DNA of 64,000 nt from the NCBI GenBank assembly GCA_027627225.1, contig CM051038.1, forward strand, positions 44,203,343-44,267,342, given 5' to 3'. Under the pieces are notes generated by a model. It made no database searches. It saw only the letters and a list, made by a program, of their open reading frames with translations, and was not told where the DNA came from. The DNA comes from Congeria kusceri. Its lineage: Eukaryota > Mollusca > Bivalvia > Myida > Dreissenidae. A program made the position numbers and the translations under genes. Of the stretch, positions 4,671-40,892 are shown piece after piece; positions within the stretch are counted from its first letter, which is position 1, and every line of letters starts with the position of its first letter.

Positions 4671-5580
4671 TTGACACGCTATCTCGTGACTTTTATCGTG
4701 ACGGATTTTTGAACTATTGACATAAATGATGACTTAGCGACTTGATACACATTACGTTGACGATATCTAGACGCAATGCTGGGTGTATAACAGTCACAGG
4801 TGACCAAAAATGTGGCGCGTCGTGAGAAAACCGGTCTTAATACATGTGCGGAAAGTGTCGTCCTGGATTAGCCTGTGCGGATTTATGGTTAGAAGACACT
4901 TCATTGAAACAGAAAATACCATAACCATACCACATGCATTAAGACCGGTTTTCCCACGACGCGCCTCAAATGTTTTATTGTTGCACAGGGCCCGTATTCA
5001 CAAAGTTTCTTATGGTAATCGTAAGTCCATTTCTTGAATTCATAACATTCCTTAGGTCTGGGGCTGTTTCACGAATATGTTGTATAACCTTACAACATTT
5101 AAACAGGTAGATGTTGCTTAGATGTTTAGTATTTTATCCGTATGCTAGCAGAAATCATTGGATTTCACAGAAACAATTTCATCTATAATTATCAGCTTTT
5201 CCTTAGGAGTTTTGTGGATACCAGCCAGAGAAAATAACTATTTACTTAACTTTACTTCTGTTTAGATGATTTTAACGGTCTGCAAGGAAATAGTAGACAT
5301 GGGGAGCTGTTACGATCTTCCAAAAGATATAAAAGGAAAAAAGTATTCTGTGAATTTTTAGTTCATAATGACGCAAAAAATGGTGTGGGTATTCGAAACA
5401 TTCAAGGCGTAATAACACCAGTATAATTATAAAATGTGATTGCTATAACAACGCAGACATAGAGCTTCCTTGTTAGATAAACATCGCAGAGTGACGTAAT
5501 ACTTGACTCTTAAATCTACAGATACCAATCATCAGTCAGATGAGAAGCAAATGTGTGACGTATAGTACGGGCGAATACGG
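4670..5580. repeat. Second copy of the duplicated module
   Basis: This stretch parallels 800-1678 plus 2434-2720: the TCTCGTGACTTTTATC motif, one unit of the 76-bp repeat (from 4753), the GTATTCACAAAG junction (about 4990), CATTCCTTAGGTCTGGGGC, then AACGGTCTGCAAGGAAATAG and the GTGACGCAAAAAATGG-type block. It lacks the 755-bp mariner-like insertion of the first copy but carries a different MITE at 4813-4967. Confidence 0.7.
4813..4967. mobile_element. Foldback MITE (GAGGCGTGTCGTGGG family), short copy
   Basis: The left end TGGCGCGTCGTGAGAAAACC and right end GGTTTTCCCACGACGCGCCTC are imperfect inverted repeats. The paralogous empty site near 1388-1400 reads ACCAAAAATGTATTATTG. Here the insertion is bracketed by AAATG on both sides, suggesting a 5-bp target duplication. 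Other copies lie at 16107-16355, 43665-43929 and 48385-48629, with fragments at 24003, 37215 and 40645. Confidence 0.8.
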
Positions 5581-9024: not shown

Positions 9025-9984
9025 TCAAATCCTGCAGTCTCTCTGGAAGTGGATGGCAGCCCCGTTATATTCCCAACCGTCTTCATGGTCTTGTACATCC
9101 ACATTTACATCGTTTGGATCATCATTGCCCTCAGCCTGTTGCGCAGGTTCCACGTCACTTTTCACTTTCTCAGACAGATAGCAGGACCTCCAGTCTGGAA
9201 AATAATCGAACGACCTGCACACGAACGTGTCGGCACCCTCGCACCTGCCCTTGCAGTCCTCCAGGGTGACATTCAACAACTCGAGGTTATTGTATCCTCG
9301 AATAGCGTAGTTGTTCACGGTTTGGTAGCTGCGTCCGTAGCCCCCTTCACATTTTTCAACGCACGTTTGTCGCAGACTGTCTGAGCTGAGACCTGGCTCG
9401 CACTGACAAATTCCGTTTCTGCATTCACTCCTCCCGACTCGACAAATGTCCACATCTTCCGTGCAAGCGCTACCAATCCCCATGTAATAGACCACCCCTC
9501 CTACCACAACGTTACGCTTGTTGGCCGTCGTTTCAATTCCACCTGTTATCTTATCCACACCTTTAAGATCGTACGCGATTTTGAGGTTCATTATTCTAAC
9601 CTTTTCATTTACCGCTTGTATTTCATCGTCTATTTTCTTCCCCACGTTGGCGTCTAAATTGTTAAAATATGCGTCTAGCGTGCCATCATCGTGAAGGTAA
9701 TCTTCCAGGTTGCGGATATCTCGTGCCAGTTTCTCAATCCTTTGAAGCCGATGTTTCTGACGCGCATCGTCAAGGCTCGTCAAGCTCTGCCGCTTTCGGG
9801 ACTGTTGTTCCAGAGTCAGCCGTACCAACGTCTTCTTTAACATGTCTAGTTTATTGGCTATCTCTTCTTGTGCATTTGATTCTATCTCTGCTTTTGTTTG
9901 CAGACCAGAAATGGCATCCTCATTTTCACTGTGACCTGTGACGGTATTTAACAAGGCACACAGTATCAGAAAAGTACAATACAT
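9025..9984 (-). CDS. Secreted protein with coiled coil, EGF/EB-like and PAN/Apple-like domain
   Basis: An intact 319-aa ORF in one exon. Residues 1-17 (MYCTFLILCALLNTVTG) form a signal peptide. Residues about 30-130 are Lys/Glu/Leu-rich with heptad-like spacing, a probable coiled coil. Residues 174-212 hold a compact cysteine cluster (C174, C181, C188, C193, C195, C208, C212) like an EGF or EB module. Residues about 212-317 have PAN/Apple-type features: LEDCKGRCEGADTFVCRSFDY, C268 and a final C317 in RDCRI, with an Asp-rich acidic insert at about 278-303. PAN domains bind proteins or glycans extracellularly, so a secreted lectin-like or matrix/immune recognition role is plausible but inferred. 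Codon use and GC are clearly higher than the flanks, which supports a real gene. No intron is evident; an upstream 5' UTR exon cannot be excluded. The overlapping plus-strand ORFs are shadows. Confidence 0.85.
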   Translation of the reverse strand: MYCTFLILCALLNTVTGHSENEDAISGLQTKAEIESNAQEEIANKLDMLKKTLVRLTLEQQSRKRQSLTSLDDARQKHRLQRIEKLARDIRNLEDYLHDDGTLDAYFNNLDANVGKKIDDEIQAVNEKVRIMNLKIAYDLKGVDKITGGIETTANKRNVVVGGVVYYMGIGSACTEDVDICRVGRSECRNGICQCEPGLSSDSLRQTCVEKCEGGYGRSYQTVNNYAIRGYNNLELLNVTLEDCKGRCEGADTFVCRSFDYFPDWRSCYLSEKVKSDVEPAQQAEGNDDPNDVNVDVQDHEDGWEYNGAAIHFQRDCRI

Positions 9985-10879
9985 GTTTTATAGTTACAAC
10001 GTTATTCGTTTAAAATCGTTTAGTTCTTTGCCCGCTTCTCCTAAGTTGCTGTTGTGCAGCTCGTTACTGAACTACCAATGTTATGGCCAACCAAATTTTA
10101 AAAAGTATTCAGGACGTCTACACTTCGCAAAAGGAAGTAGCCACTTGCGTGTCTATGGGTTGTACTCTATCCAGCGATATAGCTCTGACAATAATATCTT
10201 AGTGGTACAAATTGACTCTTTATATTGTATCGCTCTTGTTTAGTTACAAGCAGAAAACAAAAACTAATACCGTTTCATGTCTTAACTCTCTAACCAAACG
10301 AATTCTGCCATGTCTTTCCAAGTCCGTGACCCATATTCATAAAACGGCTTTCTAAAAACAATCTTCTGTAATGTTCTTTAAGGTATTCAAGCCATTATAT
10401 CTCGAACACTACAAATCTTACTATTTTCTTATAGTACATTCATATCTGGACTCTTCTGAAAAATTTTAAGAGATTTTACCGTTTCGTTATTCAGATATTG
10501 TTTGTTAATTACCATAACCCTATTCATATGGTTATTGTTATATATACATGTATTCGACATTTGAATAAAATTTGAAGAGCACTGTTTATTTTCAGTAGAA
10601 ATGACAATTTAAACAATTTGTGTCACTGATTTCCAAAATAAAAGACTATTGCATATAAAGCAGCGAAAGAGCACTACTGACATACTAAATATATTGGAAA
10701 TAACGTGACATAAATGAGCAGTCATCATTTGAAATGAATACAGTTATAAAGCGTGTGTAACGCGAAATGATTGAATAATTTGGAGTATTTCAGTTGTTTC
10801 GTTGACATTGCGTTGAAAACACGTGAAAAACGTACATGAAGTAAATACAATACGGGAATGATGTATGATACATATCAAT

Positions 10880-13212: not shown

Positions 13213-13382
13213 ATGCTGTACAAGATGGCGTTGTTATGGTGTGTTCTGGTTGCTATGGCAACGGTGGTGACCGTGGTTACCGGAAAGGAATGCAGTTACA
13301 GGTCGAGCTGTAGGTGCGATTTCGATGACGGTTCGGGCATGTTGGATCTATCTTCCTTCCCACAAACGTCCGGGACCCCCAC
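13213..13382 (+). CDS. MRH/ATG27-like protein, exon 1 (signal peptide and start of domain)
   Basis: First coding exon of a gene I assembled from splice phases. The ATG at 13213 (a second, in-frame ATG is at 13225) opens a hydrophobic signal peptide, residues 1-24 (ALLWCVLVAMATVVTVVTG), then a mature start with C27, C33 and C35 and DGSGMLDLSSFP. A Cys-rich N-terminus followed by a D-G-S/D-L-S motif fits the mannose-6-phosphate-receptor homology (MRH/ATG27-like) fold. The exon ends at a strong donor (AC|gtgagt) in phase 2, which joins exon 2 cleanly. The predicted product is a luminal or secreted receptor-like protein of 223 or 177 aa depending on the last exon. The fold call rests on the pattern over all exons; molecular function is inferred. 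Confidence 0.75.
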
Positions 13383-15578: not shown

Positions 15579-15669
15579 GTTCAAGGACCAGCCCTCCTCC
15601 AAAGACAACTACCTGTACTCGTACAACCCGTGCAGCCCGTTCGACGAGGGCACGTGCACCAGCGTGGCG
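15579..15669 (+). CDS. MRH/ATG27-like protein, exon 2
   Basis: Bounded by an acceptor (CGTGCCAG|GTTC) and a donor (GCG|gtaggt), 91 bp, entering in phase 2 and leaving in phase 0. It encodes residues 57-87, with YLYSYNPCSPFDEG followed by a second Cys. Y-x-Y-N-P-C with a downstream C is the typical central motif of MRH/ATG27-like domains. GC content and codon use are far above the flanking intron. It is too short to show as a long ORF. Confidence 0.75.
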
Positions 15670-17106
15670 GTAGGTGGCCCTTTGTAGCATTCATTTTTGC
15701 GTATTACTATAGTATTGTTTAAACATATTTGCTATAGAATGAGTGTGTCGAAAGTCCGAAGCTTATTGAGACACTTTCGAGCCAGTTTTCTGGGTAGAAA
15801 CAGTACTTGGTGTATTTTGAGAAAAGATCATTTGAACGTTCCTCGACTAGGTTCGAACCCCCAATCTCCCAATCGCACGGCGGACACCATATTCATAACT
15901 CCGCTGCGACAGTATTACTATAGTATAAGTTTTGGTCCCAAGGACTATTTAATTAAAATGGATGTACATGTTTATCTATGGTGATTGCAAAATGTACTTC
16001 CGGGCCACTTCTTAGTCAAGTGTGAGGTTCGGCATGTCTTTAAACCGGTTTAAACCCCCAATGCTTTGCATTGACCGCTTCATGGCGGCAGCCAAGTTAA
16101 AATCATATTTGAGGCGTATCTAGGGAAAACCGGACTTAATGCATGTGCGTAAAGTGTCGTCCCGGATTAGCCTGTGCAGTCCGCACAGGCTAATCCAGTA
16201 CGACACTTTCCGCCTACAGTGCTTTTGTGTGTAGAAGAGACTTCATTGACACAGAAAATACCATAAAAGCGGAAAGTGCCGTCCTGGATAAGCTCCTGCT
16301 CAGGCTAATCCGGGACAACACTTTACGCACGTGCCTTAAGCCCGACATAACGCTGCGAGTTTGGTAGACTTGCCTACGACATCTGCTCGTCGGTTTCTAG
16401 TAAATTGTCGTCATGTTGCTAATGTCCTCACAAGTCGTAAAGACTCGTCCACACTCGTACATCCTCGAAGACAAGTCTTTGATTGTCGAACATATATCGT
16501 ATGCACATTTCGGCTGAACTCGTGATACAATGTGATTAGCGTACTTGTGTCCTGTCAATGTCGTGTCAAGGATGAAGAGGATTCGAACAGATGTCGTCTT
16601 TAAACAATTCCGCGACCAACTCGGCCACATTACGGCGAGTTATAACTCTCCAGAACTCGTACAGAACTCGAAGATCAAACTCGCCACAGTGTGACAGGGC
16701 CTTTAAATAAAAGACCATATGATGTTTATAAGGGAATCCCTCCTGCTGATGAAGCTGGTTTTTCACATTTTTTAAACTTATTTTCGAACATTGTTCAACC
16801 AAGGCTTTATCTTTAAACTTAGACTTTATCTTACAACATAAGCCAATTTAAATGAAAGCTCATACGTATCAACATTTAATTGGCCCAAATTTTAATGTAT
16901 AATTAATTTCAGCGCGGAAACTAATTGTTTAGTGAAATTATATGTAAATTTCTGAATAACACCCCCCAAAAAATCATTTGAAGTTTGCGGTCTATTCATG
17001 TATAGTAAATGAAATTTTATTTCTTGTAAATATTGTTCTATATAAGTAAAATACATATTAACAATACATATTTGCATTTTATATGGAAAAGTTGAAATGA
17101 GAGTAT
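15670..17106. other. Intron 2, unique 5' part
   Basis: No gene in this strand or the other. It contains a foldback MITE (16107-16355) and otherwise AT-rich sequence up to the start of the exon-derived array. The minus-strand ORFs at 16397-17077 have no domain signal. Confidence 0.6.
16107..16355. mobile_element. Foldback MITE (GAGGCGTGTCGTGGG family), full-length copy
   Basis: Begins TTGAGGCGTATCTAGGGAAA, has GTGCGTAAAGTGTCGTCCC, a central palindrome (CCTGTGCAGTCCGCACAGG) and a mirrored second half ending AAGCCCGACATAACGC. Nearly the whole element can fold on itself. Confidence 0.85.
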
Positions 17107-20100
17107 AGTGTCGCTTGCTCTGTGACAGGATTGCCAGTTTGACCTGTTCTATATCTAGACGATATAGTACAGGTCAAACTGGCACACTTGTCACAGAGAA
17201 AGCGACATTAGAATTGCTACCGATCTCGCAGCAATTCTAATGTCGCTTTCTCTGTGACAAGTTTGCCAGTTTGACATGTACTATATCGTCTACTATGAGA
17301 TTGGCAGCCAGTCTAATGTCGCTTTCTCTGTGACATGTTTACCAGTTTGACCTGTACTATAACGTCTATTATGAGAGCGGTAGCAAGTCTAATGTTGCTT
17401 TCTCTGTGACAGGTTTATCAGTTTGACGTGTACTATAACGTCTACTATGAGATCGGTAGCCAGTCTAATGTCGCTTTCTCTGTGACAAGTTTGCCAGTTT
17501 GACCTGATCTATATCGTCTACTATGAGATTTGGCAGCCAGTCTAATGTCGCTTTCTCTGTGTCAGGTTTGCCAGTTTGACCCGTACTATATCGTCTACCA
17601 TGAGATTGGCAGCCAGTCTAATGTCGCTTTCTCTGTGACAGGTTTACCAGTTTGACGTGTACTATAACGTCTACTATGAGGCCGGTAGACAGTATAATGT
17701 CGTTTTCACTGTGACAAGTTTGCGAGTGTGACCTGTTCTATATCGTATTATGAGATTGGCAGCCAGTCTAATGTCGCTTTCTCTGTGACAGGTCGTGCCA
17801 GTTTGACCTGTACTATAACGTCTACTATGAGATCGGTAGCCAGTCTAATGTCGCTTTCTCTGTGACAGGTTTACAAGTTTGACCTGTACTATAACATCTA
17901 CTATGAGAACGGCAGCAAGTCTAATTTCGCTTTCTGTGTGACAGGTTTACCAGTTTGACCTGTAATATAACTTTTACTATGAGTTCGGTCGCCAGTCTGA
18001 TATCGCTTTCTCTGTGACAGGTTTGCCAGTTTGACCTGTACTATAACGACTAATATGAGATCGGTAGCCAGTCTAATGTCGCTTTTTCTTTGTCAACATT
18101 GCCATTTTGACATATCGTCTACAATGAGATTGGCAGCCAGTCTATGCCGCTTTCTCTGTGATAGGTTTGCCAGTTTGACCTGTACTAAAACGCTACTTTG
18201 AGATCGGTAGCCAAACTAATGTCGCTTTCTCTGTGTCAGGTTTACCGATTTGACCAGTAATCTAACGTCTACTATGAGATTGGCAGCAAATCTAATGTTG
18301 CTTTCTCTGTGACAGGTTTGCCAGTTTGACCTGTACTATATTTTCTACTATGAGATCGGTAGCCAGTCTGATGTCGCTTTCTCTGCGACAGTTTCACCAG
18401 TTTGACCTGTACTATATTGTCTACTATGAGATCGCTAGCCAGTCTAATGTCGATTTCTCTATGACAGGTTTGCAAGGCTGACCTGTACTATACATTCTGC
18501 TATGAGATAGGCAATTAGTCTAATGTCGCTTTCTCTTTGACAGGTTTGCGAGTTTGTCCTGTACTATAACGTCTACTATGAGATCGGTAGCCAGTCTAAT
18601 GTCGCTTTCTCTATGACAGGTTCGCCAGTTTGAAATGTAGTATGACGTCTTCTATGAGAGCGGTAGCCAGTCTAATGTCGCTTACTCTGTGACAGGTTTA
18701 CCAGTTTTACCAGTACTATATCGTCTACTTTGAGATCTGTTGCCAGTCTAATGTCGTTTTCTCTGTGACAGATTTGCCTGTATGACCTGTACTATAACGT
18801 CTACTATGAAATCGGTAGCCAGTCTAATGTGGCTTTCTCTGCGACAGGTTTATCAGTTTGATATGTATTATATCGTCTACTATGAGATAAGCAGCCAGTC
18901 TAATGTCACTTTATCTGTGATATGTTTACCAGTTGGACCTGTACTATAAGGTCCACAATGAGATCGGTAGCTGGTCTAATGTCGCTTTCTCTGTGACAAT
19001 TATGCCAGTTTGACCTGTTCTATATCGTCCACTATGAGATCGATAGCCAGTCTAATGTTGCTTTCTCTGCGACAGGTTAGCCATTTTGACCCATACTATA
19101 ACTTCTACTATGACATCGATAGCCAGTCTAATGTCGCTTTCTTTGTGACAAGGTTACCAGTTTGACCTGTGCTATATCGTCTACTATGAGATCTGTTGCC
19201 AGTCTAATGTCGCTTTCTCTGTGATAAATTTACCAGTTTCACCCGTACTATATCGTCTACCATGAGATTGGCAGCCAGTCTAATGTCGCTTTCTCTGCGA
19301 CAGTTTTACCAATTTGACCTGTACTATATCGTCTACTATGAGATCTGTAGCCAGTCTAATGTCGCTTTCTCTGAGACAGGTTTGCAAGTTTGACCTGTAT
19401 TATACATTATACTATGAGATCGGTAGTCAGTCTAATGTCGCTTTCTCTGTGACAGGTTTGCAAGTTTGACCTGTACTGTACATTATACTATGAGATCGGT
19501 ATTCAGTCTAATGTCATTTTCTCTGTAATAGGTTTGCCAGTTTTTTCCTGTACTATAACGTCTACTATGAGATCAGTAGCCAGACTAATGTCGCTTTCTC
19601 TCTGACAGGTTTGCCAGTTTGCCCTGTTCTAAATCGTCTACTATGAGAATGGCAGCCAGTCTAATGTCGCTTTCTCTGTGACAGGTTTTGCAGTTTGAAA
19701 TGTACTATAACGTCCACTATGAAAGCGGTAGCCAGTCTAATGTCGCTTACTCTGTGACAGGTTTACCAGTACTATATCGTCTACTATGAGATTGGCAGCC
19801 AGTCTAATGTCGCTTTCTCTGTGACAGGTTTGCCTGTTTGACCTGTACTATAACGTCTACTATGAAATCAGTAGCCAGTCTAATGTCGCTTTCTCTGCGA
19901 CAGGTTTATCAGTTTCATCTGTACTATAACGTCTACTATGAGATAAGCAGCCAGTCTAATCTGTGATATGTTAACCAGTTGGACCTGTACTATAAGGTTT
20001 ACTATGAGATTGGTAGCAAGTCTATTGGTGCTTTCTCTGTGACAGGTTTATCAGTATAACCTGTACTATAACGTCAACTATGAGATCGGTAGCTAGCCTA

Positions 20101-20653
20101 CTGTCGCTTTCTCTGTGGCAAGTTTTCCGGTTTGACCTGTTCTATATCGTCCAATATGAGATCGATAGCTAGTCTAATGTCGCTTTCTCTGCGACAGGTT
20201 TGCCATTTTGACCCATACTATAACTTCTACTATGAGATCGGTAGCCAGTCTAATGTCGCTTTCTCTGTGACAAGGTTACCAGTTTGACCTGTACCATCTC
20301 GCCTACTGTGAGATCTGTTGCCAGTCTAATGTCGCTTTCTCTGTGATAGGTTTACCAGTTTGACCTGTACTATATCGTCTACTATCAGATAGGTAGCCAG
20401 TCTAATGTCGCTTTTTCTGTTACAGGTTTGCCAGTTTGACATATACTATAACGTCTACAACGAGATCGGCAGCCTGTCTAATGTCGCTTTCTCTGTGACA
20501 GGTTTGCCAGTTTGAGCCGCGCTATAACGTCTACAATTAGATTGGTAGCCAGTCTAATGTCGCTTTCTCTGTGATAGTTTTTCCAGTTTGACATGTACTT
20601 TATCGTCTACTATGAGATCGGTAGCCAATCTAATGTCGCTTTCTCTGTGACAG
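17107..20653 (+). repeat. Exon-derived tandem array, about 47 units of 76 bp, in intron 2
   Basis: The consensus unit runs GTTTGCCAGTTTGACCTGTA, CTATAACGTCTACTATGAGA, TCGGTAGCCAGTCTAATGTC, GCTTTCTCTGTGACAG, then repeats. In the phase of exon 3 it reads VCQFDLYYNVYYEIGSQSNV then AFSVT, matching the first 25 codons of the real exon 3 (20654-20772). Units are mostly 70-76 bp and diverged by scattered changes; 76 is not a multiple of 3. The first unit at the left edge is followed by an inverted copy (about 17158-17231). The array abuts the true exon 3, whose acceptor is supplied by the last unit. It is therefore a local amplification of a partial exon, not a dispersed satellite. Confidence 0.95.
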
Positions 20654-20772
20654 GTTTGCCAGTTTGACCCGTACTATAACGTCTACTTCGAGATCGGTAG
20701 CCAGTCTAATGTCGCCTTTTCCATGGCCGAAAATGACGTAGTAGTTACCTATGTTAGCGACGATGGAGTCAG
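20654..20772 (+). CDS. MRH/ATG27-like protein, exon 3
   Basis: The acceptor TTTCTCTGTGACAG|G and donor CAG|gtaatc bound 119 bp, phase 0 in and phase 2 out. It encodes residues 88-126, starting VCQFDPYYNVYFEIG and continuing with VVVTYVSDDGV. Q90 and R127 (R127 is split over the junction with exon 4) sit where MRH domains place their Gln and Arg sugar contacts. Its first 62 bases are the progenitor of, or derived from, the 76-bp intronic array. Unlike the array units it continues past AFS into a unique second half, which identifies it as the real exon. Confidence 0.75.
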
Positions 20773-21065: not shown

Positions 21066-21153
21066 ACAAAGTCACGTGACCTTGAAGTGTAACCCCGACC
21101 CTGCCGCCTCACCCGCCCTAACTGTCACCGGGGAGACATCATTCACCATTTAC
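21066..21153 (+). CDS. MRH/ATG27-like protein, exon 4
   Basis: The acceptor TTATTTTCAG|ACAAAG and donor TAC|gtgaga bound 88 bp, phase 2 in and phase 0 out. It encodes R127-Y156: RQSHVTLKCNPDPAASPALT, then VTGETSFTIY. R-x-S-x-V-x-L-x-C is a hallmark of MRH/ATG27-like domains. E150 and Y156 are candidates for the conserved Glu and Tyr of sugar-binding MRH domains (established for M6P receptors; the match here is by position only). Confidence 0.75.
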
Positions 21154-25999: not shown

Positions 26000-28900
26000 C
26001 ATTTTATTTTCTCGCAGTGGCTTTACATACATGCATACATTAAAACATACACAATTATATTATACTAATACAAAAGTATTAATACATTTGCATGTACACA
26101 ATTAAAATGATATGTCATGAAAACTATTGCATGTCTATAAAAGATTGTAAGTACAACAAAGACTATGCCGAGGACACTGAGTTGCATTGAGTATATATGT
26201 ACTTATGATATTGTGAAGACTACAAAACTAATGCTATGACATACATACTAACTATTACATAACAAACAGTGTATGCATACAGCGGTATTTATACATTTAC
26301 ATGTATTAAATTGAAATATGTTGTAAAAAACACAGCACATTAAAAAAAATATATGCCAAAGACACTGAATTACATTGAGTATAATCTCTTAATTCTTCAT
26401 CTGTTTTTGTTGTATTTTTTTAAATTTCAAATGAGCGTTTCAAGCTATAAACTAGTCCACAGTTAGAAGGAATTCAGTTTTTTCTCTGGCAGTGAAAAAT
26501 ATATCGTTTAATTTCTAGGCATAAAATATTTAAATTGTTGATTTTTGAATTTGTAATACCTAGTATACTATCCTGTTAGCTGGATAGGTAAGCTTTGTCT
26601 ATTTCTATTCACTATATGAACAGCAAATTTAATAATTTCTTGAGAATGTATACAGTTCCAGAACAAGTGTGTTATATTTTCTACTTCATTTTTACAAAAA
26701 GTACATAGATTATCAGCAGCTATTTTCATATTAAACATATGGGCTTTTGTTCCTAAGGTTCTGTGGACAATTCTACATTGGAACCATTGGGCATAAGTAT
26801 CTTTACTAATATTGAACACAAGTGCATATGGATTTTTCCAGTCAATACCATAGAACTCGGCATTCTATTTTGTTTGACTGGTTGGGATATCACTGTTTTG
26901 AATATATGTTTTATGAACATGTTTTTCTTCTTTAGGACTTGTTAATATTTTCTTTACATAAGTTGCTAATACAGGTCCTTGAATTTTGTTATCATAGGTG
27001 AACATGTCTCCAAAAGTTTTATTGTATTTACTTGTTACTTTGATTAAACCTTGATACAGTAGAAAATTCACATTTTTCCAATTAGATAGTCCAAAGATTC
27101 TTTGGAGATAAAACAGTTTCTATCTATCAATATATCTCTAACGAGACGAATACCTCTTTCATATGACTTTTAATAAATATATAATTATTGTCCATTTTAA
27201 AATTGTCATTGTAAAATAGAGGCATATCTAGAATATCATTGCAATTGACTATAGGCAACTTTTTAATATACAATATATAGCTTTTAAAAACATAGCCAAA
27301 ATTTATTTTTCAAATTTAAGCAAAGTTGCTCAGCAAACATTTTACCAGTATTAAACAGTTTTTTAATGTCAATAAACGATTTAACAAGTCTATAACAATT
27401 TCCATCTCCTGTCACAAATCTCTTAAGCCATGTTAATTTCATATGTTTTTCAAATGAACAAACATCTATCATGTTTAAACTCCCTTCGTTATATTCTTTA
27501 ACAACAACTATACTTTTTATTTTGCTTGGACCTGCCCATATGAAGTCATAAAATAGTTTGTTAATTTGTTTCATAATTTCTATTCTTGGTGTTAGTAGTG
27601 AAACAAATAAATGGGTAAGCAATGGAAGAAGCAATGATTTAACAATAGTTATTTTTCCTAGAGGTGTAATATTTCTACGATTCCAGTGAGTTATTAAATT
27701 CTTGATGCTGTTGATTTGATTATCAAAATTTTGCATTACCATGTTGTCTAAATATATGTCATACACTATTCCAAGCACTTTAAAAGTTTTTGCTCCCCAT
27801 GTCAGTTTGTATTTAGTTTTTATCGACCTACCTAGTGCTGTACTTCATAGAGCCTATCCAATTAGATTAGTTTTTTCATAGTTTATTTTCAGTCCAGAGT
27901 ATGTAGAGAATTCATGAAGCATGTCTAGTGTACAATTAAGAGAATATTCAGATCCGTCAAGTAATAAAGATGTGTCATCAGCAAATTGTGATATTTTGTA
28001 TTCTATGTCTTTAATTGTAATACCTTTTATTTGTTTGCTTTCTCTAATTTTAATAGCAAGGATTTCAGCACATAAAATAAAAATGTAAGCGCTTATCGGG
28101 TCCCCGTGGCGGCAGCCCCTCTCTATACAGAAAGGTATTTGACAAGAATCCGTTTAATTGTATAGAGGTCATGGTATTGTGCAAAAACATGGATATCCAT
28201 TGGTCCAAAATTAAAAAATCTGAAAGTGGTTTCTATAAACTGGAAAGATAAGGTATCGAATGCCTTGTCAAAATCGATTGTCATAAGTAATCCAGGTAAA
28301 TTATTATCTTCAGCATATTTCAAGATGTCATAGAGTAATATAGTGTCTTCCCCAATAAATCGCCCTTTAATGAAACCAGTTTGATCTTTGGAGATTAAAA
28401 TATCAAGGACTGTTAATCCTTATTATTTATTAGAAGTCATTATTCCATGTTTTTGAGTTACAGACAATGAATTAGTATTAAAGGCATAATTTATACTTCT
28501 TACTATGAATTGGCCTAACTTGTTCCAAAGAACTTGATAGAATTCAGCAGTAAATCCATCAGAACCTGGACTTCTGTCATTTTTCATGTTTTTAAGTGTA
28601 AAGACGACTTCCTCCATACTTAGTAGTCCTTCTAAAGATTCAGATTGAACATTATTTGGTTTCGGTATATTAATGTTAGACAAATCTGTATATATATCAT
28701 AAGCAATTTCATTTTCATTTTTTTGTATAATGTTTTATAGAATGAAACTGCTTTATTTAAAATACCATTTTCCTCATTCAACTTAACACCATTTTCTGTT
28801 TCAATAAAAGGTATTGACTTGTTTGTATAATGGTTAGATTCAAGAGAGCAAATGTATTTTGTGGGTTTTTCCCCCTCTTCTAGCCATTTAGCTCTAGAAC

Positions 28901-29440
28901 GAATAAGTGAACCTTTATGTTTATTTTCCCTCAAGTTTTCTAATTCATTTTGTAAATCTTGAAGTTGATTAATATTAGTTTCAGTTAATGACTTTTCAAG
29001 TTGTTCTATTTTCATAGTTAAATTAGATTCGTGTTTTTTGTTAAACTAAGCTTTATATGATGAAAATAAAATAGTTTTTCCTCTAATTTCCATAAGTAAT
29101 GTTTCTAGGAATAACTGGTCATTGATCACAAATTGTATGTCATTGTTATTAAGTGTTTCTATGCATTATATATTGTATACTGGGATACAATATTGTTTTT
29201 TTAATATTTTCAATCAATTTAAATAGTCAATATCATTTAACAGTGAATTGTTGAATTTCCACAGACCTATTCCATGGGCTATATCTCCAAAACTAATTTC
29301 TAAGTCAATAATTGAATGATATGATTTATAACTGGAATCTATATTTGAGTTTCAAATTTTAGCGGACAAACTATTAGAAGTTAGGAAAAAATCAAGTCTA
29401 GCCTGCTGTCCTATGAAATAATTTTTAGATTATCCATTTA
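26000..29440 (-). pseudogene. Degenerate L1/Tx1-like LINE ORF2 (endonuclease end, reverse transcriptase, C-terminal zinc finger)
   Basis: Minus-strand blocks in collinear order: GQQARLDFFLTSNSL (end of an APE-type endonuclease, about 29350-29430); a linker/RT0 segment (28632-29015) with IRSRAKWLEEGEKPTKYICS; RT segments with NMKNDRSPGSDGFTAEFYQ (28423-28683) and LMTIDFDKAFDTLSFQFIE (28123-28323); the catalytic FADD box as YKISQFADDTSLLL (about 27970); a post-RT region (27284-27778); and a CCHC-like end with CTFCKNEVENITHLFWNC (26568-26819). Stops and frameshifts separate the blocks, so it is dead. The order and the FADD-containing RT make the LINE call certain; the clade is inference. Confidence 0.85.
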
Positions 29441-31159: not shown

Positions 31160-33895
31160 TAATCAATTACGTTAAATGGGATAACAATTATGGTGATCAG
31201 TTTTTATTAGATATCACCACAGGAGTTAATCAGCTATGTCAAGACTTATATCATTGTAAAGAAAATAATTTAGATACTGATGAAATGGTAAAGCGATTCA
31301 CAATGTATCTAAATAATAGTGGCAATAAGTATTTTTAAAAACATTATAAACTAAATAAATGTGCACAATTTTCAAACGCACACAATAAATGGTTTGATAA
31401 TACATGTAAACAAAAACGTAATATATATATTAATAAGTTGAACCTATACAATTTGTATAAAGATAGTGATAATAGAAATATGATGTTAATAGCGAAATAG
31501 GATTACAAGTACCAATGTAGACAATCTAAACGTTATTATAACAGGAACCAGTATCTTAAAATGAATGATATGAGATTGAAAAAAACAACAAAAGAATTTT
31601 GGAAACTATTCAAGAAAAAATCAGTTAATAATACAGGCGATCATATTGACATCGATTCGTTTTTTGACCATTTTAAACACTTGACCTCGTCAAATATCAT
31701 TGTCGAAGAAGAAGACATTAACGAATACGTAACAAATCAAAACACGAATAACATGGCGTCAGCCACATTCCAAGAATTAGACGATTTATTCACAAAAGAA
31801 GAAATACGAAAGGCAATACAACTACTGGGAACTAACAAATCACACACAATAGATAATATTATAAACGAATATTTTAAAGTGGAAAAGGATGTCCTGGATA
31901 CACCACTGGAAATATTTAACTATATACTTGAAAAACAGGTATTTCCAAAATCATGGTCAAAAGGTGTTATTATACCTATTTATAAGAAAGGCAACTCACT
32001 CGATCCCAATAATTATCGAGGCATAACATTAGTGAGCTGCTTCGCAAAATTATTTACTGTCGTTATAAACGAAAGGCTTAAAAAATGGGCTACTGCAAAC
32101 GATATGCTCACGGACGCTCAGTTCGGTTTTAAATCTAATTATAGCACGGTAGATGCATTTTTTTTACTAAAAGCTTTTATAGATAAACAACTTAGTTGTA
32201 AAAAGAAATTATATTGTTGCTATATTGACCTAATGAAATGCTTTGACTCAATATATGGAAACGGATTATGGTATAAGCTGATTAAGAGTGGAATAAACGG
32301 CAGATTGTTAAAAATTATTCAATCGATGTACGATAAAGTTAAATTATGTATTAAACATATGGGCTTGTTGTCAGATTTCTTTAATTGTGACGTCGGTTTG
32401 TTGCAACGGGAGATAATCTCACCCATACTATTTTCATTGTTCGTTAATGATGTTGAACACTTTTTGGGTAATAATAATGAAGCAACGATAACCTTAGACC
32501 AGTTGTCTTTTATTTATTACTGTTTGCAGATGATGCTGTAATTTTTCCAGAAACACCGAAAGGTCTGCAAAATTCATTAGATAATTTATACGAATACTGC
32601 GGGCGATGGAAGCTAAAAGTCAACGTAGACAAAACTAAAGTCGTTATATATAAAAAGGGCGGAAATAATTCACATAATGAGTCATTTTATTATAATAGTG
32701 AGCCACTAGAAAACGTTCAATCATTTAATTATCTTCAAATCGTATTATCAAGTGGTGGATCGTTTATACAAACTACTCAAACTCTATAAGATAAGGGTTT
32801 AAAGGCTATGGGGTCACTTTTTTCAATTACAAAAGAAATGCATGTTCCAGTTAAAATAATGATGAATCTGTTGATTCTTATGTCACGTCTATACTTTGTT
32901 ATGCTTGTGAGGTTTGGGGGTTTTCGAATGCTGATGATATTGAAAGAATTCATAGAAGATGTTTGAAAAGAATACTTGGTGTTAAAATGAGTACTTCTAA
33001 TTCAGCAGTGTATGGGGAGCTTGGACGCTACACGTTATATATAACTCGTTATGTAAGAATCTTAAAATATTTTATAAAGTTGTATACTGTTAAACAAACA
33101 AATTGCATATTGTATAGTACACTATTATATATGAGATGCGATGCATAAAATGTAATTCGATGTAACAATTGGTTATCAAAGGTGAGAGACTTGCTTCAGA
33201 ATACTGGGTTTTATGATGTATTGCTGTATCCGGAATCAGTAAATATTAATGTATTTATTCCCATTTTTAAAACCAGACTTATTGACATGTACATAGGTTT
33301 GTGGCGAAATGATTTGAATACAAAGAGTTCACTAATATTATATAAAGAATTGAAACAAAGATTTGAATTATCTGATTATCTAGACATTGTAAAAAGCTAT
33401 AAGTTAAGAATTTATATATCAAAAATAAGACTTTCATCTCATATATTTGAACCTGGTAGACATGCACATATTCCTAAAAATGAACGTAAATGTATTATAT
33501 GCAACACAAATGATATTGAAGACGAGTATCACTTTGTTATAGTATGACCTCTTTATATTAATATTAGAAAAAAAAATATTTACAAATATTTCTATAACCG
33601 ACCTAGTGTGCATAAATTTATACTTTTATTAACAATTACAAATTCTTAAGTTCTTTTGAAACTTGCCTTATACTGTAAAAATGCATTTAAAATGAGATTT
33701 GATGCTTTAAATGCACATGTTTAATTTGAGCATGGCCTGTATAATCATAACAACTGAAAATGTTGTGTAATGTTCACTTTCGCATTGCTATGCATGTGCC
33801 TATCTATTAATTATTATTTTGTATGTGTAACGATGAACTGTAATTGTTCAAGTTATATCAATAAACTTTCTTTTCTGTTCTGTTCTGTTCTATAA
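31160..33895 (+). pseudogene. Degenerate plus-strand LINE (non-LTR reverse transcriptase) with TTCTG tail
   Basis: A 326-codon ORF (31561-32541) encodes an RT with IPIYKKGNSLDPNNYRGIT, LTDAQFGFKSNYST, CYIDLMKCFDS (normally DF-x-K-A-F-D) and LLQREIISPILFSLFVNDV. The FADD box, LLLFADDAVIF, lies at about 32510-32545 in a different frame, so a frameshift precedes it. The C-terminal segment (33182-33547) has SSHIFEPGRH and KCIICNTNDIEDEYHF, the usual terminal Cys/His motif. The element ends AATAAACTTTC and TTCTG repeats at 33850-33895. Upstream linker-like fragments reach back to 31160. The CR1/Jockey-like affinity is an inference. Confidence 0.85.
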
Positions 33896-38304: not shown

Positions 38305-38508
38305 GAAATGACGGTTAACGCTCACCAGGCATGCGCAGTGCCTTCAAAGGGAACTTCCGGGTCTGCGTCCCTCAGTGGAGGTTCAATCATGCTCATAATG
38401 TTAGTTCTTCTACATACTAATCATTTCTTCTCGTTCTTCTTCTTCTTTATCTTCTTCTCTTCTTCATTATCATCATTTACATCAGCAGCATCAGCATTAT
38501 TATTATAA
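38305..38508 (+). CDS. MRH/ATG27-like protein, candidate last exon 5a (hydrophobic tail)
   Basis: The acceptor TTTTTTTTTCCATTCCAG|G enters in phase 0, matching exon 4. It encodes residues 157-223: EMTVNAHQACAVP completes the MRH-like domain with its last Cys, then GTSGSASLSGGSIMLIMLVL begins a hydrophobic segment. L-S-x-G-S-I-x-L-I resembles the membrane entry of M6P-receptor-like proteins. The final about 27 residues are Phe/Ser-rich and encoded by a TTC/TCA microsatellite up to a TAA. Either the tail is a genuine membrane or GPI-type anchor, or a donor I could not identify (GGAG|gttcaa at 38379 is possible) skips it. Confidence 0.6.
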   Translation, partial: EMTVNAHQACAVPSKGTSGSASLSGGSIMLIMLVLLHTNHFFSFFFFFIFFSSSLSSFTSAASALLL

Positions 38509-38830: not shown

Positions 38831-39545
38831 CAGCAGAACTACAACTGTACCACCACCATCAATGACGTTTTACTTTGTGCGATACTATGATTCCAGTCTC
38901 TGTATATGATATTGTAGTACAGACGGATTTTATTAAATTTAGTGTATTTTATCCATTGTGTTGCTATTTTAAGATTTGTATTCTGTTCGGAGCTGTTCGT
39001 ATATGTGTCCCTGAGGATTTCGCGCCAGTTTTGTTTATCCGAGCGTTTCTATTGGATTCTTGGTAGAATGTTTGGTTGTTCAAGGCTCATTTGCCATTTC
39101 TTTACAAGGACCCACCTGCTCAAAACTGTAACGGCCAATTAAGCTTACAGCCTGTCGCTTTATATGCAAATGACATATAACAAGCAACTTTATTATCGAA
39201 CATTTGAAATAATTTGAGCATTGGAATTTATTCAGAATAAACACACAGTTTAAAATCGTTTGGTTTGATTTACATGAATAAATTCATCCAAATGTTACCG
39301 GCGTTTAGATTAATTGGCCGTTGACGTTTTGAGCAACTGAGCCCAGATCTGTAACAATATCATGTCTCTGTCCAAACGTCTTGATTTACGTGCAGATTCT
39401 TCTCCGTACTTTTCACGTATATTCTGGCGGGCGTGGCGTTCAATCGGGTTCGAAACCAGTCTGGCATGAATTTGATACCAAACCAAAGTTTCTGGACCGA
39501 CCTGCCTGCTCTTATAAAGGTGATACAAACGACACATATACCATC
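38831..39545. other. Stretch with no gene recognised
   Basis: Between the microsatellite and the hAT-like element. Short ORFs on both strands lack domain signal. The phrase TTGGCCGTTGACGTTTTGAG near 39313 partly mirrors CAAAACTGTAACGGCCAATT near 39121, bounding a possible inverted-repeat element of about 210 bp. Confidence 0.4.
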
Positions 39546-40826: not shown

Positions 40827-40892
40827 GATGGCTGGTCACTGACCATGGTTGTCGTCTGCCGACGGAAATACGGATACGTCTCGGCCAAATAG
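40827..40892 (+). CDS. MRH/ATG27-like protein, candidate last exon 5b (short soluble tail)
   Basis: The acceptor GCTGTTTGTTTTGCAG|G is strong. In phase 0, as required after exon 4, it reads DGWSLTMVVVCRRKYGYVSA-K then TAG. This supplies a terminal Cys after a short beta-like stretch, as exon 5a does (MTVNAHQAC), but ends in a basic tail without a membrane segment. It is followed by about 740 bases without repeats and an AATAAA at 41631, as expected of a 3' UTR. Whether it is an alternative to exon 5a or spliced after it in another phase cannot be settled without RNA data. Confidence 0.55.
   Translation, partial: DGWSLTMVVVCRRKYGYVSAK

Follow-up and report, generated by a model that had tools for sequence, protein, structure and literature searches.

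Arrays in which the edge of an exon is multiplied in the neighboring intron have been described in a few settings. The "mirage" minisatellites of amphioxus occur in Adh3, in the globin genes BflGb6 and BflGb9 and in TnC, with similar repeats in PGBD5. According to the relevant passages of the two papers, splice signals are kept in many but not all of their units, the number of units varies between haplotypes (6 and 3 units of 150-160 bp in the two haplotypes of BflGb6), and splicing is normal for Adh3 and the globins (PMC3087553, PMC3902484). What has been called "sequence stuttering" or "exon stuttering" on chicken dot chromosomes concerns 236 introns of 115 genes, with 1-44 copies. In the parts of that report that bear on the question, 190 of the 236 introns lie on dot chromosomes, which the authors link to GC-rich coding sequence; the copies include the adjacent splice site (donor or acceptor), the exon is intact, the length of the intron varies between individuals, and no stuttering was found in other vertebrates except in gerbil genes (PMC12954441). 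Human internal tandem repeats at exon-intron boundaries, as summarized in the passages at hand, have on average about 4 units of 30 bp and are linked to new introns (PMC2812944). Here, we analyze a stretch of 64,000 nucleotides of the bivalve Congeria kusceri (assembly GCA_027627225.1, contig CM051038.1, positions 44,203,343 to 44,267,342 of the forward strand; hereafter the window), in which an array of 76-bp units fills the 3' end of intron 2 of a cation-dependent mannose-6-phosphate-receptor-like gene and adjoins exon 3. We consider it probable that this array is a minisatellite across the exon-intron border, of the mirage type, here in a mollusc, and that it is a by-product tolerated in the intron of an open gene.

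Tandem Repeats Finder (TRF) gave the array a period of 76 bp, 46.1 copies and 81% matches over 17236-20715. Our own cut, by alignment to a cyclic consensus, divided the array up to 20653 into 46 unit rows, of which 45 are near complete (fewer than 20 gaps each), in agreement with the roughly 47 units adjoining exon 3 of a preliminary description. The span then given, 17107-20715, covers the array but also takes in the first 62 bp of exon 3 (20654-20715), and its 5' end (17102-17227) is made of a partial direct copy and an inverted copy. Each 76-bp unit consists of a 62-bp copy of the start of exon 3 and a 14-bp copy of the end of intron 2, including the acceptor AG. The tandem units span the exon-intron boundary in the way that characterizes mirages. 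Aligning the consensus and the units with exon 3, as had been suggested, gave 59 equal positions out of 62 (mismatches at 17, 35 and 36). On average, the 45 near-complete units differ by 14.3% from exon 3, by 16.6% from each other and by 9.6% from the consensus, the last figure lying within the 20% by which exon-edge copies in an adjacent intron are recognized as exon stuttering. A doubled unit matched all along the array and exon 3 in BLAST, with E-values down to 3e-65, far beyond chance. The initial claim that the unit is base for base the start of exon 3 holds for the 62 bp, at the level of the consensus just given, and fails for the other 14 bp. The seed was not purely coding: the unit is a piece of the intron-exon junction that carries a 3' splice site. 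The codons for AFS, previously read as a match to the exon, are GCT TTC TCT in the array and GCC TTT TCC in the exon; all third positions differ, and in the array these codons coincide with the pyrimidine tract. The exact 25 bases of the real acceptor (20629-20653) occur 8 times in 17101-20653, the real one included. At the 5' edge, one inverted unit stands between direct units (17102-17236), an arrangement that may record template switching.

The host gene is open, as had been thought. Its seven exons have GT-AG borders and join in frame into a protein of 250 aa, which scores above the cut-offs of two Pfam families (Man-6-P_recep, 52.6 bits for a cut-off of 25.4; ATG27, 64.6 bits for a cut-off of 27). 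The authentic exon and the reading frame remain intact despite the array, a further characteristic of mirages. A search with the full protein found 10 homologues at E <=0.01, including those of Mya arenaria (54% over 67% of the query) and Mercenaria (47% over 92%); a search of PDB with alignment A1 gave no match at E up to 10. The protein segment of exon 3 is recognizable in the homologues of Mya, Mercenaria, a gastropod and a nemertean. Hence, the direction was from exon to array, as initially proposed, and 20654-20772, whose status as an exon was in question, reads as conserved coding sequence. The array and exon 3 differ in two residues: the array has Tyr (VYYEIGS), as does Mya, where exon 3 of C. 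kusceri has Phe, and at the second position exon 3 has Pro, again as in Mya, where the array has Leu. At the codon of intron 2, a paralogue from this contig also shows a likely 5' splice site, a comparison that concerns the donor side only, and the 5' splice site of intron 2 (15670) falls outside the array. These sequences make both intron 2 and exon 3 look old, with the array as the derived part. A Rogers-type intron gain, by tandem duplication of AGGT, was considered as the origin of intron 2 and is not favored, given the likely donor of the paralogue at the same codon and the position of 15670. Two paralogue loci 14 kb apart (C15:45204216 and C15:45218154) are 100% identical over 3096 bp, and the same contig has more receptor-like exons at about 40.7-40.8 Mb and 45.0-45.2 Mb, many at weak E-values; these loci probably form a local gene family. 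Within intron 4, open frames at 26568-29045 (minus strand) and 31501-33547 (plus strand) resemble, by eye, broken reverse-transcriptase elements of the long interspersed nuclear element type.

The presence of dozens of acceptors in front of one exon raises the question of which of them is used. With a 5' splice site (20773) directly after exon 3, exon definition would most likely select the last acceptor, and the whole array would be spliced out with the intron. The array has no match to GTRAGT, the consensus 5' splice site. When exon 3 is made to start at any of the 45 upstream unit starts, translation gives proteins of 91-136 aa with an early stop; 33 of these starts stand directly after an AG, and the translation covered unit starts, not the shifted acceptors of the rest. 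Use of an upstream acceptor would lead to the early stop and probably to nonsense-mediated decay of the mis-spliced RNA.

How could such an array arise? The founding step was probably the tandem duplication of a 76-bp piece across the junction between intron 2 and exon 3, which would then have been amplified to about 46 units within the intron by unequal exchange or slippage. A second copy of the array lies 820 kb away on the same contig, and the two are base-for-base identical apart from one in-register deletion of 1358 bp, or 18 units, whose junction shares 25 identical bases (17616-17640 = 18974-18998). Within the array, 3 of the 25 closest pairs of units stand 14-15 units apart, which points to a likely duplication of a block at that distance. 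The growth of the array fits unequal exchange, given this in-register deletion, the likely block duplication and the lack of polarity. We found no homogenization of nearest neighbors, since adjacent units are not more alike (mean distance of 0.171 at lag 1 vs 0.166 overall). It had been proposed that the array is a frozen by-product of slippage or unequal exchange, a splicing-control device or a source of sequence for the conversion of exon 3; the by-product fits best. Alternatively, all 76 bp could be exonic (+1 to +76), with an acceptor that evolved from coding bases. This is still conceivable, given that the AFS codons match at their first two bases, but it is less simple than a junction piece because intron 2 already had an acceptor. 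We compared the consensus units of four other arrays of the window with the window and its flanks (L022-L027), and recognized no coding source for them. One other array has a period of 76 (881-1414, 7 copies, 92%) and is unrelated in sequence to that of intron 2; it has a partial relative at 4755-4806 (85% over 52 bp).

Several observations weigh against a junction piece that was multiplied from the exon end, is spliced out at the last acceptor and decays neutrally. The absence of a 5' splice site in the array is relative: of its 311 GT sites, one agrees with the donor consensus at 7 of 9 positions and several at 6, compared with 6 to 8 for the six real donors, two of which reach only 6, so that weak donors are possible. 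The use of the last acceptor is a prediction from the sequence. Along the array, there is neither an age gradient nor a polarity (Spearman 0.15 and 0.21, not significant), although strict seeding that starts at the exon end would predict such a trend. At the founding seam, the exon part and the intron part have a weak similarity (8 of 14 bases), and 3 of 105 exon offsets reach 8. Finally, the positions of the 3' splice site change slowly, which neutral decay does not predict.

This slow change deserves attention. The three codon positions within the units change equally (3.05, 3.00 and 2.95 changes per site), which rules out coding constraint on the units; even the branch-point-like CTAAT of each unit derives from coding sequence. 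In contrast, the 13 positions chosen for the 3' splice site average 1.15 changes per site vs 3.17 elsewhere, about 2.7-fold fewer (permutation p 5e-5; 7e-4 corrected over 76 registers), with the reservation that these 13 sites were picked from textbook knowledge but after the per-position table had been seen. The slow sites (53-57, 63-69 and 75 of the unit) fit the branch point, the tract and the A of AG, with faster bases between the tract and AG. The block is seen without a tree (scan p 0.0016 for variant types and 0.018 for minor copies) and, with a second tree, as a contiguous window of 18 nt (scan p 0.005). The result is stable under stratification by base and CpG, for a first, slightly wider choice of sites. 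Among the seven minisatellites tested, only this array has a significantly slow block, and the block is exactly TCTAATGTCGCTTTCTCT; the six others, all local, have none (scan p 0.22-1.0), with less power since all six have shorter units and five have fewer copies. The branch-point motif is intact in 41 of the 45 units, the tract in 44, the AG in 39 and the complete site in 35. Some of the signal is weaker when divided: the branch-point positions alone fail the scan correction (p 0.24), the tract alone barely passes it (p 0.03), and half-arrays are significant before scan correction or marginally so (scan p 0.03-0.23). Shared variants are depleted (4 at the 13 sites vs 68 at the 63 others, p 0.001); private variants are not clearly so (7 vs 54, p 0.13), and a comparison of both classes gives no significant difference (Fisher p 0.34). 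A new AG between branch point and acceptor is found in 1 of the 45 units vs about 4 expected, numbers too small to tell. The slow block could result from weak selection for or through splicing, or from exchange concentrated there.

The second of these explanations is possible, if on the doubtful side. Conversion between units would be concentrated in the slow block and homogenize it, for reasons unrelated to splicing. The single exchange that we observed was resolved inside the block, in the 25 identical bases of the deletion junction, but exchanges are in any case expected to fall where two units share their longest run of identical bases. Linkage across the block is close to the shuffled level (mean r2 of 0.024-0.026 vs 0.023 shuffled, with a 97.5th percentile of 0.0259), and at 31-50 bases within units it rises slightly (mean r2 of 0.028), as exchange would have it, but the difference is too small to decide. 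Exchange also gives no reason for the slow sites to fit the elements of a splice site and to leave faster bases between them. A working splicing device, as far as the sequence can tell, is unlikely: weak selection would maintain the acceptors as decoys, which would delay splicing or send some transcripts to early stops and so reduce expression. The slow positions, found both without a tree and with the second one, lend indirect support to the splicing control evoked in the preliminary description, as do the many complete sites, the lack of a slow block in the six other minisatellites and the truncation of the protein from all 45 upstream starts. These arguments are offset by the late choice of the sites, the weakness of the branch point and of the tract taken alone, the weak half-arrays, the private variants and the lower power of the controls. 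Moreover, with about 46 redundant sites, any selection acting on a single one would need to be very weak. We think it quite unlikely that the array works as a copy-number-variable splicing damper, with dozens of competing 3' splice sites held by selection while their coding part drifts. If it did, the length of the array would tune how often a transcript ends in an early stop.

Other explanations concern the locus as a whole. We searched the whole assembly (1.549 Gb) at the DNA level; the match counts are lower bounds, and a missing match is no proof of rarity. Exon 3 with the last unit gave at least 78 matches, all in this array or in the second one, and internal units only gave at least 40, confined to the same two arrays, with 2 candidate regions in each search. 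The occurrence of the unit at many unrelated loci, as a dispersed satellite or a transposon-borne array, which the preliminary description had set against its own reading, was not found in either search. Helentron elements are reported to spread short satellite-like arrays through the Pacific oyster genome (PMC7492417), but with matches at this locus and its second copy only, and with exon 3 being old coding sequence, it is most improbable that an ordinary dispersed satellite contained or donated the exon sequence. The second copy could represent the other haplotype or else have arisen by recent duplication. The two versions of the duplicated block agree at 99.9%, with 57 mismatches over 59,757 aligned bases when indels are left aside, and the match is unbroken over at least 30 kb to the left of the window and the whole window (94 kb), with pieces at 98-99% on the right side. 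This near-identity, together with other family members that this contig also carries as near-identical or same-scoring pairs, would suit an assembly artefact, either unmerged haplotypes or a repeat collapse, behind the copy number and the second copy of an array that is itself real. We find this rather doubtful, because the array is present in both copies with identical sequence on either side of one clean deletion, and because, among the 12 other arrays that TRF lists for both copies, there are 3 whose copy number differs as well, against 9 that are equal or cut by an end. The length difference of 18 units comes from one pair of genomic copies, whether alleles or a recent duplication. To the right of the window, three minisatellites have 53.7 and 51.7 units (39-mer; L026 7121-9247 vs L020 4018-6057), 40.4 and 37.4 units (44-mer; L027 4723-6502 vs L021 1526-3176), and 7.4 and 12.4 units (22-mer; L027 9489-9650 vs L021 6164-6433).

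Table 1. Features of the host gene and of the array of intron 2 (positions in the window).
Feature	Positions	Strand	Evidence
Exon 1: start codon, likely signal peptide, start of MRH-like domain	13213..13382	+	GT border, phase, tblastn to homologues; start codon by eye
Exon 2	15579..15669	+	Border, frame, tblastn; at this codon, a likely 5' splice site in a paralogue
Direct copy of the unit, incomplete and diverged, bordering the array on its 5' side	17102..17153	+	BLAST to unit, 90% over 52 bp
Unit in inverted orientation, imperfect palindromes with neighbors on both sides	17156..17227	-	BLAST minus-strand match, 93% over 72 bp; self-comparison
Direct array, 46 units of ~76 bp, the first one partial	17236..20653	+	TRF, BLAST, consensus alignment
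18-unit (1358 bp) stretch missing from the second genomic copy	17616..18973	+	Comparison of both copies
Exon 3 acceptor: branch-point-like CTAAT 20630-20634, pyrimidine tract 20640-20646, AG 20652-20653	20629..20653	+	Branch point by motif only
Exon 3; 20654-20715 is the source of the exon part of the unit	20654..20772	+	Homologues, frame, borders
Exon 4	21066..21153	+	tblastn to homologues, joined frame
Exon 5, start of transmembrane part	38305..38399	+	tblastn, joined frame
Exon 6, transmembrane part and cytoplasmic tail	39396..39519	+	tblastn, joined frame
Exon 7, last coding exon, stop TAG	40827..40892	+	Frame and AG border; weak tblastn match (E 0.82)

Two more features of the window were seen by eye. 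At 16150-16340, there is a palindromic short repeat element (GGATTAGCCTGTGCAGTCCGCACAGGCTAATCC) that resembles a miniature inverted-repeat transposable element. On the minus strand, 9025-9987 holds an open frame of 320 residues from stop to stop, cysteine-rich and with a likely signal peptide, which may encode a secreted protein.

The array of C. kusceri belongs to a kind that is already known. The preliminary description had regarded intronic satellites made of exon copies as unusual, but the passages cited above report the same arrangement in the mirages of amphioxus and in the exon stuttering of chicken. A search of the literature, at the level of titles and the beginning of abstracts, revealed no announced case of an exon-edge array in a mollusc among the papers listed (up to 20 of up to 98 per query), which is not proof of absence. 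As described for BflGb6 in those passages, the unit joins the 3' end of an intron with the 5' part of an exon (exon 2 in that gene). The array of C. kusceri differs from it by its size, about 46 units of 76 bp, and by its host, a bivalve. It also differs from the mirages in having slow splice-site positions, and the passages in question of PMC3087553 and PMC3902484 mention no such test. What it shares with chicken exon stuttering, as there presented, is an exon edge with its splice site that is repeated in imperfect tandem through the adjacent intron while the exon stays intact. It lacks the GC-rich dot-chromosome setting, which is an association and not a definition of the phenomenon: GC content is 35.0% in the window and 47.1% in exon 3, and the contig has 56.8 Mb. 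Like the human internal tandem repeats, to go by what is cited of them, it is a minisatellite at a border that varies between near-identical copies, but the human repeats are linked to new introns whereas intron 2 of C. kusceri looks old, with the likely donor of the paralogue at the same codon. What this locus adds is a mollusc, an AT-rich setting, a large array and slowly changing acceptor positions. It also offers a natural experiment on the choice of acceptors, with near-identical 3' splice sites placed 76 bp apart before one real exon and two array lengths in one assembly. An exon edge multiplied with its splice site in the neighboring intron has now been found in lancelets, birds and a bivalve, and is thus confined neither to a single lineage nor to chromosomes rich in GC.

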